In this document: positions 26,110 through 51,963 of the stretch, one piece after another
How positions within the stretch are numbered: the stretch's first letter is position 1
Layout: every line of letters begins with the position of its first letter
Origin: Paenirhizobium daejeonense
GTDB taxonomy: Bacteria; Pseudomonadota; Alphaproteobacteria; Rhizobiales; Rhizobiaceae
Assembly (NCBI RefSeq): GCF_014280875.1
Contig: NZ_JACLAL010000008.1
Location: 104,149-168,148 of the forward strand
DNA: 64,000 nt
Reading direction: 5' to 3'
Notes under the pieces: generated by a model
Told to the model about the DNA's origin: nothing
The model's database searches: none
Seen by the model: only the letters and a program-made list of their open reading frames with translations
Made by a program: the position numbers and the translations under genes

Positions 26110-26319
26110 TCATTTGCGGACGGGGCCGGCCATCCACTTGATGATGAACATGGCCGGCAGGATCCACAGCAGGCCGGACAGCAGAAAGTAGAGGAGATGC
26201 ACCCACCACGGCGAAGTCGCGAGCAGGCTCGAGGCGATGGTGGTCGCGAGGATCGCATAGGCGACGACGAGGATGATGATGAGGATCGTGCCAATGAACG
26301 AGCGCAAACGGGCGGGCAT
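26110..26319 (-). CDS. DUF2842 small membrane protein
   Basis: This 69-residue protein has two hydrophobic helices ([20 protein letters not shown] and [20 protein letters not shown]) ending in KWMAGPVRK, the pattern of alphaproteobacterial DUF2842 proteins. Function is unknown. It is divergent from ctaA, with a 127-base shared upstream region, a pairing I recall from other rhizobia and one that may hint at a link to cytochrome oxidase assembly. Confidence 0.85.
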
Positions 26320-26446: not shown

Positions 26447-27550
26447 ATGACTGACGCGGCAAGCACCACCGAGATCCAGGTTCGTCAGGCAATGGAGCGT
26501 AGCGGACGCAATCGACGCTCGATCCGCATATGGCTTGGCGTCGTGCTGGTCACGCTTTTCTGTCTCGTGCTGGTGGGGGGCGCCACGCGGCTGACCGGCT
26601 CCGGCCTTTCCATCACCGAATGGAAACCCATTCATGGCGTCATCCCCCCGCTTTCGGCCGAGGAATGGCAGGAGGAATTCGCGCTCTACCAGCGTATTCC
26701 GCAGTACCAGCAGATCAACAAGGGCATGACGGTCGACGAGTTCAAGTCGATCTTCTGGTGGGAATGGGCGCATCGCCTGCTGGCCCGCAGCATCGGCGTG
26801 ATCTTCGCTCTGCCGCTTCTTTACTTCTGGCTGACGGGCAAGGTCGAGCGCCGTCTGCGCTGGCCGCTGGTCGGGTTGTTGGCTCTCGGCGGTTTTCAGG
26901 GTTTCATCGGCTGGTGGATGGTGTCATCGGGGCTGAGCAAGCTTACGAGCGTTTCCCAGTATCGCCTCGCAACACATCTCGTGATTGCCTGTCTGATCTT
27001 TGCCGCCTGCATGTGGATCATGCGCGGTCTGTCGCCGCATAGTGGGGATGCTCCCCCGACTGCGACATCACGTCGCTGGGCAGGAATGCTGGCATTCCTC
27101 GCCCTGTTCCAGATCTATCTCGGAGCTCTTGTCGCCGGCTTGGACGCAGGCCTTGCCTACAATACCTGGCCTCTGATGGACGGAGCGGTCGTTCCCTCCG
27201 ATCTCTTCATCCAGCAACCCTGGTGGATCAATCTGTTCGAAAATCCCAAGACGGTTCAGTACGTCCACCGCCTCGGTGCCTATCTGCTTCTGGCTGTCGC
27301 GCTGTGGCACATGATCCAGTCGTTGAGGGCCGCACCCCAGACGACCCACTCCCGTCGCAGCGTCGTGCTCTTCGCCCTGATCATGATCCAGGCGGCTATT
27401 GGCATCACCACGCTGCTCCTGCAGGTGCCGTTCGACGCCGCCCTTGCCCATCAGGGCGGAGCCCTCATCGTCCTCGGTTTCGCCATCGCCCACTGGCGCG
27501 GGTTTTACGGAGAATACGCGCCAGAGACGGCGGTCGTCCTGCGCCGCTGA
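26447..27550 (+). CDS. ctaA: Heme A synthase (CtaA/COX15)
   Basis: This membrane enzyme oxidises the C8 methyl of heme O to the formyl of heme A for cytochrome c oxidase. The 367-residue protein has eight predicted spans and the conserved heme-ligand histidines in [14 protein letters not shown]-equivalent [22 protein letters not shown] and AHQGGALIV. The N-terminal [18 protein letters not shown] is a COX15 signature. I chose the ATG at 26447, preceded by GAGGA, over an upstream in-frame start. A strong terminator follows. Confidence 0.94.
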
Positions 27551-27582
27551 GTTTTACCACCCCATTCCCAATCCCACCGGAG

Positions 27583-27613
27583 GGCGGGCGGATAAAATTC
27601 CGCCCGCCTTTTT
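27583..27613 (+). terminator. Intrinsic terminator of ctaA
   Basis: The 9-bp arms GGCGGGCGG and CCGCCCGCC are followed directly by five T residues. Confidence 0.9.
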
Positions 27614-27650
27614 CGTCGCCGCTTTTCCTGCTTGACGTTTCCCGCAGTTA

Positions 27651-27669
27651 ATGTCACTCATGATGACAT
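27651..27669. promoter_or_regulatory. Candidate operator overlapping the TetR start codon
   Basis: ATGTCA at 27651-27656 and TGACAT at 27664-27669 form an inverted repeat with a 7-base spacer, overlapping the proposed ATG at 27668. Its position fits autorepression by the adjacent TetR protein; this is inference. Confidence 0.4.
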
Positions 27670-28306
27670 GAATACATTGAAAGTGACAAAATACGAAAGC
27701 CCGTTGCGGGCGGAGCAGGCTCAGGCCACCCGCGAAAAAATTCTCGCGGGCGTGCGAACAATGCTGGAAGCCGATCCCGCCAATGCGCTCGGGTTCGACG
27801 AACTGGCGGAGGTGAGCGGTGTGAACCGCCGCACCATCTTCCGACATTTTCCGACCAAGGAGGACCTGTTGTCGGCTTTCTGGCAAAGCGCCAACGCCTC
27901 GCTCGGCGTGCGCTTCTGGCCGGAAAGCGAGCAGGATCTGGTGGAGTTGCCGCCGGAACTCTTCGCGTCGCTCGACGGTATCGAGGGCATCGTGCGCGCC
28001 TCCCATGCGAGCGGCGCCGGCCGGCAGATGCGTCTGCAGGCGAATGGCGAGCGGCAAGCGGCGTTCCGCAAAAGTCTCTCGGATGTGACGGACAATCTGG
28101 ACCCCAAACGGGCAAGGCAGCTCGAAGCGACGGTCCAGATTCTTTTCAGCGCCACCGCTTGGCAGACCATGAAGGATTACTGGGGGCTGTCGGGAAGGGA
28201 GGCTGGAAAAGCGGCCGCATGGGCGATCGGCGCCCTGCTCGATGCGGCAAGACGGGAAGGGCGCCTGTTGAAGGACGAACAGTTGGAGGAAGATGGGAAT
28301 GAATGA
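27668..28306 (+). CDS. TetR/AcrR-family transcriptional regulator
   Basis: The 212-residue protein has an N-terminal TetR helix-turn-helix (REKILAGVRTMLEADPANALGFDELAEVSGVNRRTIFRHFPTKEDL, in pieces) and a helical ligand-binding C-terminal half. No good Shine-Dalgarno sequence precedes the ATG at 27668, and an upstream in-frame TTG at 27632 is possible. Its stop overlaps the start of a cupin gene, so the two form one operon; the cupin is the likely target or partner. Confidence 0.82.
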   Translation: MNTLKVTKYESPLRAEQAQATREKILAGVRTMLEADPANALGFDELAEVSGVNRRTIFRHFPTKEDLLSAFWQSANASLGVRFWPESEQDLVELPPELFASLDGIEGIVRASHASGAGRQMRLQANGERQAAFRKSLSDVTDNLDPKRARQLEATVQILFSATAWQTMKDYWGLSGREAGKAAAWAIGALLDAARREGRLLKDEQLEEDGNE

Positions 28307-28766
28307 CAATTTTTCAGCAAAAGTGCATCCGGCCGCAAGCGCCGGAAAGATGTGGGTGATGGGCGATGAGGTGATGAAGCGCGGCAGGCTGGAAGGTACC
28401 GGCTTCAATGTCATCGACGTGGCCGTTCCGCCGGGCAGCGGCACGCCGCCACACAGCCATGCCTCGCCGGAGATCTTTCGCATCCTGCAGGGCACGGTGA
28501 CGATCTGGGCACTGATCGATGGCAAGCCGACCGAGACCGAGGCCGTACCCGGCGACGTGGTAACCATTCCGGCCCATGCGCCACACGCCTATCGTAACGC
28601 CTCGCAGGTGCCGGCGCTGATGATGTCCGTCGTAGACGACCGGATGATGGAATTTTTCGAGGCTGCTGCCAGCCACGAGCCGCCGGCCGGTCCGCCGACA
28701 CCCGAGGCGATCGGTCGCATCATGGCTCTCACCGAGACCTACGGCATCCATATTCTGGCAGCGTGA
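28299..28766 (+). CDS. Cupin-domain protein
   Basis: The 155-residue protein has a single cupin barrel with both motifs: PPHSHASPEIFRILQGTV (His-His-Glu metal ligands) and PGDVVTIPAHAPHAYRN. Such proteins bind a metal and may be small-molecule dioxygenases, isomerases or sensors; the substrate is unknown. GGAGG at 28285-28289 is 9 bases from the ATG at 28299 but only 3 from the ATG at 28293, hence the chosen start. It overlaps the TetR stop. Confidence 0.78.
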   Translation: MNDNFSAKVHPAASAGKMWVMGDEVMKRGRLEGTGFNVIDVAVPPGSGTPPHSHASPEIFRILQGTVTIWALIDGKPTETEAVPGDVVTIPAHAPHAYRNASQVPALMMSVVDDRMMEFFEAAASHEPPAGPPTPEAIGRIMALTETYGIHILAA

Positions 28767-28787
28767 CGTCCCGGATCGTTTTCGACA

Positions 28788-28812
28788 GAAGGCCGGCGGG
28801 CCGCCGGCCTTC
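28788..28812. terminator. Perfect GC-rich hairpin between the cupin gene and the argC remnant
   Basis: Twelve-base arms (GAAGGCCGGCGG and CCGCCGGCCTTC) flank a single G. No clear T-run follows on either strand, so termination efficiency is uncertain, but its position between converging genes fits a terminator. Confidence 0.55.
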
Positions 28813-28817
28813 CGGCA

Positions 28818-28880
28818 GAAAGCATCATGGCCATGTTCTGGACGGCTGCCCCCGAAGCACCCTTGCCGAGATTGTCGAGA
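28818..28880 (-). pseudogene. Duplicated fragment of the argC 3' end
   Basis: These 63 bases match the argC segment 29872-29934 at 58 positions without gaps (counted by eye). In the argC frame they read [16 protein letters not shown] followed by AMMLS where argC has DLMLS. The match stops at the argC stop codon, where TGA is replaced by GGA. It lies 15 bases after the dioxygenase stop. It has no start of its own and is a remnant or a recombination footprint. Confidence 0.8.
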
Positions 28881-28895
28881 GCAGATCTTGTGACC

Positions 28896-29723
28896 TTAGC
28901 CGAACCTGTATCCGGAATAAGGCTTGCCGCGGAATTCACCACGGAAGATGTGCTTGCCGGCGTCGCGACCGGCGGCGCCGGCTGCGACGAACAGGGGTAC
29001 GAGGTGGTCGTGGTCTGGAATGTGGCAGGCCTGTGCGTCCGGGTTCAGTTCCCACGTTGCAAGTCTTGCCGCCCTCTGATCCGGGTCCTCGATTGCTACC
29101 ACATCGCTCAGCCAGTCGTCGAAGCGGATGGCTTGCTGTGTGTGCTCGGGGTTGTCGTGGAAGAACATCCGCATGTTGTGGTAGCTCATGCCGGAGCCGA
29201 CAATCAGCACGCCCTCGTCACGCAGCGGCTCCAGAGCCTTGCCGATTGCCACATGGCTTGGAACGTCGAGCGTGTTCTTGAGCGACATCATCACGACAGG
29301 CACATCGGCATCTGGATAGGCGACCATCAGCGGGATGAATACGCCATGGTCATAGCCGCGCTTGGTATCCTCCGCAGCCGGAATGCCCGCGGCTTCGAGA
29401 AGCTGCTTTGCCCGGTGCGCCACATCGGGAGCGCCCGGAGCAGGGTAGGTGAGTTCATAGGTCTGGGGCGGAAAGCCATAATAATCATAGAGCATGCCGG
29501 GACGGCTGGCCGAGCTCAGGGTCGGCACCGGTTCTCCTTCCCAATGGCCGGACACCATGAGAATGGCTTTCGGCGTGCGGCCGACATCCCTCGGAAGCGA
29601 TTTCAGGAAGTCCGAAAGATCCGCCCACGGCTTCTTGCCGTCCGGTCCCGCCGGAAACTGCATGAAGGGCCAGGGACCGCCGCCATGGGGGATGAAATAG
29701 ACCGGAAAACGGGTGTCGCTCAT
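28896..29723 (-). CDS. 4,5-DOPA-extradiol-dioxygenase-like protein (LigB superfamily)
   Basis: The 275-residue protein matches the class III extradiol dioxygenase family that includes E. coli YgiD. Candidate metal-binding histidines are in YFIPHGGGPWPF, SGHWEGEP, YDHGVFIPL and GSGMSYHN. The enzyme would open catechol-type rings. GAGG six bases before the ATG at 29721-29723 supports this start rather than the upstream in-frame ATG. The gene sits between argC and a second copy of the argC tail, which suggests it arrived at this place by recombination. Confidence 0.85.
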   Translation of the reverse strand: MSDTRFPVYFIPHGGGPWPFMQFPAGPDGKKPWADLSDFLKSLPRDVGRTPKAILMVSGHWEGEPVPTLSSASRPGMLYDYYGFPPQTYELTYPAPGAPDVAHRAKQLLEAAGIPAAEDTKRGYDHGVFIPLMVAYPDADVPVVMMSLKNTLDVPSHVAIGKALEPLRDEGVLIVGSGMSYHNMRMFFHDNPEHTQQAIRFDDWLSDVVAIEDPDQRAARLATWELNPDAQACHIPDHDHLVPLFVAAGAAGRDAGKHIFRGEFRGKPYSGYRFG

Positions 29724-29864
29724 TTCGCGCCTCATCTGTTGATGAAGCGGAATATAGCAACTTGATCAAGGGCAAACGATCCGTCGATCGGACGACGAAT
29801 CGTTCACTCGGAATGAACAATCAAGCTGTCGTTCGTCAATTCTTGAGAACGTTTCTGCCCTGCC

Positions 29865-30797
29865 TCAGGCGGAAAGCATCAGGTCCATGTTCTGAACAGC
29901 TGCCCCGGAAGCACCCTTGCCGAGATTGTCGAGAACCGCGACGAGGTTGACATGCGGGCCGCCCTGCGTGCCGAACACGAAAAGCTTCATCGTGTCCTGA
30001 CCCACCAGTTCCTCGGCGTCTATGCGAGCGAGTTTGGCGCTTTCCTCAAGCGAAACGACGCTGACGATATTCTGCCCGGCATAATGCGCGACAAGGGCTG
30101 CATGGATCGTCTCGATCGTCGTGCCTTCCTTCAGGTCGTCCAGGAAGAGCGGAACCTGCACAATCATACCCTGTGCAAAGCGGCCGACGGAAGGGGAAAA
30201 CAGCGGGGCTCGGTCGAGCAGGCCGTGTGTCTTCATCTCCGGCACGTGCTTGTGCTTGAGGGGCAGGCCGTAGAGGAAATTGTTCGCCGAAATGGCGTCG
30301 GGCCGGCTCTGGTCTTCCATCTGGGCGATCATCTGTTTGCCGCCCCCGGTGTAACCGGAGATCGCGTTGATCGTGACCGGATAGCCATCAGGCAGGATGT
30401 CAGCAGCCCTAAGCGGCCGGATGAGGCCGATTGCACCGGTCGGGTAGCAGCCGGGGTTGGCGACGAAACGGGAGGAGCGGATCTTTTCCGTCTGCGCCTT
30501 GTCCATCTCCGCAAAACCGTAAGCCCAGTCCGGGGCGATACGGAAGGCCGTCGAGGTGTCGATGATCCGGACCTTGTTGTTGCCGGAAACCATCTGCACC
30601 GCTTCCCGCGAAGCATCATCGGGCAGGCAGAGAATGGCGACGTCCGCGCTGTTCAGCATGTCTTCCCGCATCGCCTGATTGCGCCGCTCCGCCTCTGGGA
30701 TGGACAGCAGTTCGACGTCGCGGCGGCCGGCCATGCGGGTGCGGATCTGCAGTCCCGTGGTGCCGTGTTCGCCGTCGATGAAGATCTTCGCTGTCAT
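29865..30797 (-). CDS. argC: N-acetyl-gamma-glutamyl-phosphate reductase, short type
   Basis: ArgC reduces N-acetylglutamyl phosphate with NADPH in arginine synthesis. The 310-residue protein is the short (type 2) form usual in alphaproteobacteria. It starts [14 protein letters not shown], has the catalytic Cys in [14 protein letters not shown], and ends [18 protein letters not shown]. It is 69 bases downstream of the ureohydrolase gene on the same strand. Its last 63 or so bases are repeated 1.05 kb away, beyond the dioxygenase gene. Confidence 0.95.
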
Positions 30798-30866: not shown

Positions 30867-31820
30867 TCAGGTGCGGATTGCGAGCCTTTCGGCATGCAGG
30901 CCGAGCATATACATCGCGACCGTCGCGCCTGCAATGGCGGTGATGTCGGCGTGATCATAGGCCGGAGCAACCTCGACGATATCTGAGCCGCGAATATCGA
31001 GTGGTCCGAGTTTACGCAGGACCGAGAGCATCTTGGCCGAGGAGGGGCCGCCAGCGACCGGCGTACCTGTCCCGGGGGCAAATGCCGGGTCGAGGCAGTC
31101 GATGTCGAAGGTGAGATAGCAGGGCTTCCTGCCGACATGGGCAAGGATGCGGTCGGCGATCGTCTGCGCGCCGAGGTCCTCGACCTCATAGCCGTGCAGG
31201 ATGCGGATGCCGAAATCCTCCGGCGCGTGGGTCCGGATGCCGATCTGGATGGAATGGGTCGGGTCGATCACGCCTTCGCGTACGGCGCGGCAGACGAAGG
31301 AGCCGTGGTCGATCCGCTTGCCGTCGTCGTCCCAGGTATCCTGGTGCGCGTCGAAATGCACGAGTGCCAGCGGTCCATGCTTGGCGGCATGGGCCTTGAG
31401 AAGTGGCCAGGTGACGAAGTGATCGCCGCCAAGGCCGAGCAGATAAGCGCCGGAAGCGATGATCTTAGCGGCCTCTTTCTCGATCAGGCCGGGCGTTTTC
31501 TCGTGATTGCCATAGTCGAGCAGAACGTCGCCATAATCGACAACCGCCATTTTTTCGAAGAGGTCGCGGGAAAACGGATATTGCGGGTCGTTGTCGAAGA
31601 TCGCGGAGGCGCGCCTGATCGCCTGCGGCCCGAAGCGGGCGCCAGGTCGGTTAGAGACGGCCGCGTCGAAGGGGATGCCGAGGACGGCGGCGTCGACATC
31701 CTTCAACGACTTCGAAAATTTGCGGCGCATGAAGGAGAGCGCGCCGGCATAGGTCGGGTCGGTCGCGGCGCCGCGAACGGCTTTGGCAGTAAAAGCGTTG
31801 TCGATCGATTTGCTCGCCAT
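30867..31820 (-). CDS. speB: Agmatinase-family ureohydrolase
   Basis: The 317-residue enzyme belongs to the arginase/agmatinase family and probably releases urea from agmatine to give putrescine. Manganese-ligand motifs are all present: GLGGDHFVTWP, VHFDAHQDTWDD and LTFDIDCLDPAFAPGTGTP. Similar proteins may hydrolyse guanidinobutyrate or other guanidines, so agmatine is the likeliest but not proven substrate. It lies between rpsI and argC on the same strand but after a strong terminator, so it is probably transcribed separately. Confidence 0.88.
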   Translation of the reverse strand: MASKSIDNAFTAKAVRGAATDPTYAGALSFMRRKFSKSLKDVDAAVLGIPFDAAVSNRPGARFGPQAIRRASAIFDNDPQYPFSRDLFEKMAVVDYGDVLLDYGNHEKTPGLIEKEAAKIIASGAYLLGLGGDHFVTWPLLKAHAAKHGPLALVHFDAHQDTWDDDGKRIDHGSFVCRAVREGVIDPTHSIQIGIRTHAPEDFGIRILHGYEVEDLGAQTIADRILAHVGRKPCYLTFDIDCLDPAFAPGTGTPVAGGPSSAKMLSVLRKLGPLDIRGSDIVEVAPAYDHADITAIAGATVAMYMLGLHAERLAIRT

Positions 31821-31914
31821 GTCTCTTGTCTTCGTCTCTTATTTGTAGTCGGCCTGAACATAGGTGATGGTCCGCGTTCCGCAAATCCGAAATGCTGAAG
31901 GATCGCCCCGAAAC

Positions 31915-51634: not shown

Positions 51635-51788
51635 CATTCGTTCTCAGGGCGGGGTGAAAATCCCCACCGGCGGTAAGGGGTTCAGTTCCCAAGCCCGCGA
51701 GCGCCTTCGGAAGCCAAAGGCATCGGAAGGGTCAGCAGATCCGGTGCAACTCCGGAGCCGACGGTCATAGTCCGGATGAAAGAGAATG
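51635..51788 (+). ncRNA. FMN riboswitch (RFN element)
   Basis: The closing stem pairs CATTC at the start with GAATG at the end. Inside are the conserved RFN segments AGGGCGGGGTGAAAATCCCC, ACCGGCGGTAAGGGG, AGCCCGCGAGCG, GTCAGCAGATCCGGTGCAAC and CCGACGGTCATAGTCCGGAT. It binds FMN and normally lowers expression when FMN is plentiful. The regulated gene starts 175 bases later. The intervening RNA is GC-rich and could hold the expression platform, but I could not identify the switch helix with certainty. Confidence 0.96.
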
Positions 51789-51963
51789 AGGTATCGGTTG
51801 CGTGCCTGCTTCGGATGGATGATCCGGGGTCTTGGCTCATGATCGGCTGTTGCCGTGTGCCCCGGCCTCGGCGCGGCAGGTGAGGGGAATGCCTTGTCGC
51901 TCCCCGCGCATTGTCCTCATGCGTCCTGATTTGTGTTGGTCTCTTTCTCAAAGGAAGAAAGAC

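Follow-up and report, generated by a model that had tools for sequence, protein, structure and literature searches.

A second copy of the argC 3' end beside a dioxygenase gene in Paenirhizobium daejeonense, a probable recombination scar in a variable gene slot

The locus described here lies in a 64,000-nucleotide stretch of the Paenirhizobium daejeonense genome (contig NZ_JACLAL010000008.1), called the window below. On the reverse strand, argC (29865..30797; PF22698 and PF01118) is followed, after an intergenic region read on the same strand (29736..29864), by dodA, a gene for a LigB-type extradiol dioxygenase (28896..29735; PF02900, E 4.3e-29) with its stop codon at 28896-28898. Beyond dodA come a spacer of 15 bases (28881..28895) and a second copy of the argC 3' end on the reverse strand (28811..28880), hereafter copy B. 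A GC-rich palindromic spacer (28767..28810; inverted repeat I3), which by eye forms a hairpin and is absent from the terminator-scan list, separates copy B from a cupin gene (28293..28766, forward strand; PF07883), and the cupin gene adjoins a gene for a TetR-family regulator, tetR (27668..28306, forward strand; PF00440, scanned from an upstream start at 27632). The far border is ctaA (COX15; 26447..27550, forward strand; PF02628, scanned from an upstream start at 26273), after which a hairpin followed by a T run can be seen by eye on the forward strand (27551..27620), again missing from the terminator-scan list. Sixteen window proteins, which are part of the open reading frames between 22,405 and 38,619 and include the products of argC, dodA, cupin, tetR and ctaA, were scanned against Pfam, and none matched an integrase, transposase or recombinase family, in agreement with the earlier note on this DNA. 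Elsewhere in the window, an FMN riboswitch was detected at 51636-51791 (E 5.3e-27).

Copy B is a direct repeat (D1) of the functional 3' end of argC, copy A (29865..29934, reverse strand), with 63 of 70 positions identical. The earlier note had counted 58 of 63 by eye, with 15 bases between the repeat and the dioxygenase stop, and both figures were recovered when the two copies were counted. It had also placed the edge of the similarity at the argC stop codon; the repeat is indeed the end of argC, but the stop codon (29865-29867) lies inside the 70 nucleotides, so that the repeat takes in the gene end together with its stop position, where copy A has TGA and copy B has GGA. The seven differences between the copies in the window include two changes of the amino-acid type and this lost stop, and copy B is apparently non-functional. 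A DNA search of the window's own genome with positions 28800-28900 as query recovered the argC end with E = 6.5e-21; the repeat is real and far beyond chance, and chance similarity of the two tails is ruled out. A decaying full copy of argC was also rejected, as no more argC sequence was found beside copy B, next to which dodA ends 15 bases away. In genome G001, 6 more bases separate copy B from the dodA stop, and this longer spacer contains GTCGCG, which, by eye, may weakly extend the repeat.

A DNA search with the copy B region gave a match in all 63 genomes of the genus. Two matches of at least 90 bits were obtained only in the window genome, G019 and G001 (the carriers); thirteen other genus genomes gave a weak second match of 35-40 bits that was not counted as a tail, and a much more diverged tail would escape. 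The repeat that the earlier note proposed to look for in other genomes is present in two of them. An argC protein search over 40 relatives yielded second tails in these three genomes again, at distances of 1054 to 1060 bases from the end of argC, and a local search of 80 loci from named contigs, mostly titled Rhizobiaceae and a few of them short, found none.

The stretch between argC and ctaA was mapped with five marker genes in all genus genomes but G063 and G066, which leaves 61 of 63. It holds dodA in 50 of these 61 loci, 47 of which are without cupin-tetR. Seven classes of content were found between the same two core genes: dodA (18 loci), an APH-like gene with dodA (15), a VOC gene with dodA (14), dodA with cupin-tetR (3), the APH-like gene (2), the VOC gene (1) and no marker (8), where 'APH-like' and 'VOC' are labels given from sequence to open reading frames of N. 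huautlense and R. terricola. Differing contents between two fixed core genes, in a slot with no integrase or transposase among the window proteins scanned, are what is looked for in a recombination hotspot, and the argC-ctaA stretch is a variable slot in these Rhizobiaceae.

Within this slot, dodA does not behave as a newcomer. The dodA tree groups the carriers with Rhizobium terricola and three Ciceribacter, the seven together being starred, and in the tree of the GNAT gene beyond ctaA they likewise stand beside R. terricola and Ciceribacter (89/79). Conservation with Ciceribacter is also seen in the sequence upstream of dodA, where the dodA-proximal part of the argC-dodA intergenic region (to about 29805) aligns with it. 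A further argC locus, L124, on a contig titled as a metagenome-assembled Arenimonas sp., groups with Ciceribacter, and the name of that record is probably wrong.

A fourth genome, G059, belongs to the same clade. The tree of rplM, rpsI, speB and argC reads (G001,(G019,(window,G059))), the group of three being starred and the last pair labelled 86/91; argC alone gives the same order, again starred, and dodA alone and ctaA alone leave the order open. In G059, dodA starts at the same distance after argC, with neither the second tail nor cupin-tetR, and the argC-dodA neighbourhood is therefore independent of the repeat. The gap between dodA and ctaA in G059 (L216:2126-5070) is occupied by two open reading frames of 328 and 616 amino acids which, by the look of their sequences, resemble a glycosyltransferase and a membrane protein. 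Its ctaA is 96% identical to that of the carriers, with a different C-terminus. From its nested place in the tree, G059 probably lost copy B by replacement.

Taken together, the dodA tree, the arrangement in G059, the 50 of 61 genus loci and the upstream stretch shared with Ciceribacter refute dodA as a mobile or new insert in its simple form, and by these sequence comparisons dodA is an old resident of the slot. The earlier note had read the locus as an insertion of a dodA segment at the argC end. The second tail does mark a junction there, but the view of dodA as the newly inserted segment is not supported: when the relatives are compared as that note asked, dodA is found next to argC without any repeat, the very arrangement by which it said the idea would fail. 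Two side observations concern the flanks. speB (window 30867-31820) falls into two identity classes across loci, about 74-80% and 83-97%, which do not track argC similarity and hint at recombination at speB. In G019 (L061), the speB-rpsI region matching window 31750-31900 aligns only to about 21% with the other two carriers, perhaps through an insertion or a misalignment.

The unusual part of the locus is the cupin-tetR pair that lies behind the extra tail. Apart from the three carriers themselves, the genomes and loci searched gave close relatives of the pair in N. huautlense and, reduced to a cupin relic, in Pseudorhizobium endolithicum, and nowhere else. In N. huautlense (G217) the cupin is 81% and tetR 86% identical, and the pair adjoins ctaA in the same slot; argC and the cupin gene are about 1.4 kb apart there, with other sequence in between. 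In P. endolithicum a cupin relic of 69 residues lies about 89 bases after argC and before ctaA (L177:6016-6212), and a stretch of G335 that matches this relic carries an internal stop. In the rest of the genus, cupin and tetR matches do not exceed 43% identity, and the ten tetR matches at 1e-40 or better in a sample of 394 family genomes are the window genome, G217 and eight at 40-43%. A distance of 44 bases separates copy B from the cupin stop, with the GC-rich spacer between the tail and the cupin gene, and argC and the cupin relic of P. endolithicum stand in the same order. The hairpin after ctaA is common to the carriers, N. huautlense, three N. galegae-like loci and P. endolithicum, and is absent from G059, from the Ciceribacter loci inspected and from L156, L112 and L116.

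For ctaA, identities and the protein tree, in which the carriers fall on the Neorhizobium side (92/89) and which differs from the GNAT tree, suggested import of the whole gene together with cupin-tetR. This was not upheld. AU tests did not reject a grouping of ctaA with Ciceribacter (p 0.124 and 0.31), segments of the gene show mixed affinity, and G059 has the same ctaA without the pair, so that ctaA is not clearly travelling with cupin-tetR. As a separate observation, cupin and tetR (window 27668-28766) are more alike among the carriers than their neighbours are at fourfold sites. Between G019 and G001, 190 of 202 such sites in cupin and tetR are identical, against 500 of 683 in speB, argC, dodA and ctaA (Fisher p 9e-12); the same comparison gives p 2e-5 for the window and G001 and p 7e-4 for the window and G019. 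The spacers adjoining the pair are diverged among the carriers. This similarity suggests a later exchange of both genes or, alternatively, slower change in them.

The two tails can also be compared over time. Copies A and B differ at 7 of 70 positions in the window, 5 in G019 and 8 in G001. Among the carriers, copy A differs at 4 (window-G019), 6 (window-G001) and 5 (G019-G001) of 70 positions, and copy B at 3, 11 and 9, respectively. In strict majority consensus, the two copies disagree at position 51 and at the stop codon, and two further positions are ambiguous. With three positions masked, the B consensus differs at none from A and at one from G059, and at four or more from the other 111 of the 112 distinct tails (161 loci placed), four of which, at 17-20 differences, are doubtful placements. 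All differences in copy A among the carriers are synonymous; those in copy B include amino-acid-type changes and the lost stop. Given the near-identical consensuses and the different nature of the changes, A and B were probably alike in the ancestor of the clade and have diverged since. The earlier note had instead taken the differences to suggest diverged sources, which the consensuses do not support, although gene conversion could also produce such likeness. In G001, A and B have two states in common that are unseen in the other carriers, so that conversion between the copies is possible, and it would weaken the dating. The sequence of copy B did not by itself point to a donor genus, the tail being so conserved that six tails from outside the clade agree with it equally well, at 57 of 64 positions.

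With this in mind, we consider it reasonably probable that copy B is an unselected scar, left when a dodA-bearing version of the argC-ctaA slot was joined to a version bearing cupin-tetR. According to this model, in or before the ancestor of the clade, an argC-dodA version and an argC-cupin-tetR-ctaA version would have recombined. One end of the exchange would have been homologous and would have lain either in argC or, at the opposite border, in ctaA and beyond; both presumed versions of the slot are bordered by these two genes. The other end would have been illegitimate, linking a site immediately past the dodA stop with one some 63-66 bases before the end of the other argC, and the junction lies 1-15 bases after the dodA stop. 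Both gene sets would have been kept, with the last bases of the second argC left between them. Copy B would then have lost its stop and drifted, while A was held by selection. We infer the type of recombination and the presence of both versions in or near the same clade; the exchange could have run in either direction.

The varying contents of the slot, the strong second tail match in only three of 63 genomes, the relatives of cupin-tetR in the same slot elsewhere, the order of tail, spacer and cupin, the near-identical consensuses of A and B, the post-ctaA hairpin that the carriers share with N. huautlense, N. galegae-like loci and P. endolithicum, and the lack of an integrase among the 16 proteins scanned all argue for the scar. 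Against it, the presumed version argC-cupin-tetR-ctaA without dodA is unseen in the 61 genus loci, N. huautlense has its gap of about 1.4 kb between argC and cupin, and ctaA does not clearly go with the pair. Loss of B in G059, which is nested in the clade and yet without the tail, is a cost that the model has to bear. Moreover, the likeness of copy B is to the argC of the clade itself rather than to the argC found with the cupin-tetR relatives, which calls for either a history in two steps or gene conversion between the copies. Drift of B is itself not evident in every comparison, as between the window and G019 it has changed no faster (3 of 70) than A (4 of 70).

A possible, if rather doubtful, alternative is that the tail was copied locally: in the course of repair or replication, a polymerase near the end of dodA would have gone back to the argC end, about 1 kb away, as its template and, after some 66 bases, continued into imported cupin-tetR DNA, with no second argC-bearing version involved. 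The near-identity of B to the clade's own A in consensus is what such copying would give, and the match ends at or just before the argC stop codon; left unexplained is the order of tail, GC-rich spacer and cupin, which resembles that of argC and cupin in P. endolithicum.

The scar model has two directions, and one of them, which by itself we hold to be unlikely and whose weight is a share of that given to the scar, is a re-import of dodA. The clade would first have had argC-cupin-tetR-ctaA, and a piece with an argC end and dodA would have entered from a close relative by recombination in argC, leaving the old tail behind. Of all the alternatives this is the closest to the view of the earlier note. 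The geometry fits, and displaced 3' ends figure in a comparable model for T6SS loci (PMC5361080). However, R. terricola, which in the tree is the species closest to the clade without belonging to it, has dodA in the slot, as do 50 of 61 genus loci, so that an earlier loss of dodA must be assumed.

That copy B has a regulatory function, for example as an RNA element or a processing site, is very improbable. It is still recognisable in three genomes, but comparison of G001 with the other two carriers gives 11 and 9 differences in 70 positions for B and 6 and 5 for A, between the window and G019 the counts are 3 in B and 4 in A, amino-acid-type changes are present, and a search of Rfam at gathering scores found no family at the locus. 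Integrative elements are known that insert at the 3' ends of genes and restore them, and here too a short direct repeat of a gene end stands on both sides of a segment. Nonetheless, we give hardly any credence to a site-specific element that targets and regenerates the argC 3' end and carries dodA, for although a gene-end repeat flanks one gene, the 16 proteins scanned hold no integrase family match, 47 of 61 genus loci, the nested G059 among them, have dodA and no cupin-tetR, the second tail is present in only 3 of 63 genomes, and the enclosed gene is resident in relatives that have no repeat.

Similar processes have been described elsewhere. Hotspots without mobile elements, fed by recombination at the flanking core genes, have been reported (PMC5635113), and they share with this locus variable genes between two core genes, no mobile element found and differences between close relatives; here, a piece of the flanking core gene has remained in the slot, and the comparison is of a single locus. 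In Vibrio T6SS loci, displaced 3' ends are found with the downstream genes kept, which the authors relate to homology-facilitated illegitimate recombination (PMC5361080). There, an old downstream gene is also kept, a remnant of a gene end is left, and one homologous anchor and one illegitimate end are proposed, but the genes are effector and immunity genes in arrays, while here there is a biosynthetic core gene and one remnant. In the literature on argC, nothing pertinent was found among the matches listed. Most likely, copy B is a decaying remnant of DNA exchanged among related bacteria, and the locus looks like an ordinary recombination scar rather than a mobile element. One may speculate that the argC end is a reusable landing pad of homology for RecA-dependent gene entry, where each entry can leave a tail and array-like units of gene plus tail could build up without an integrase, but we regard this as a long shot.

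The locus can thus be explained without a new mechanism and reveals no new system. It is also a caution that a gene with a repeated gene end at its side has not necessarily been inserted, and the scar illustrates how accessory genes can be swapped between core genes of the Rhizobiaceae without a recognised mobile element.
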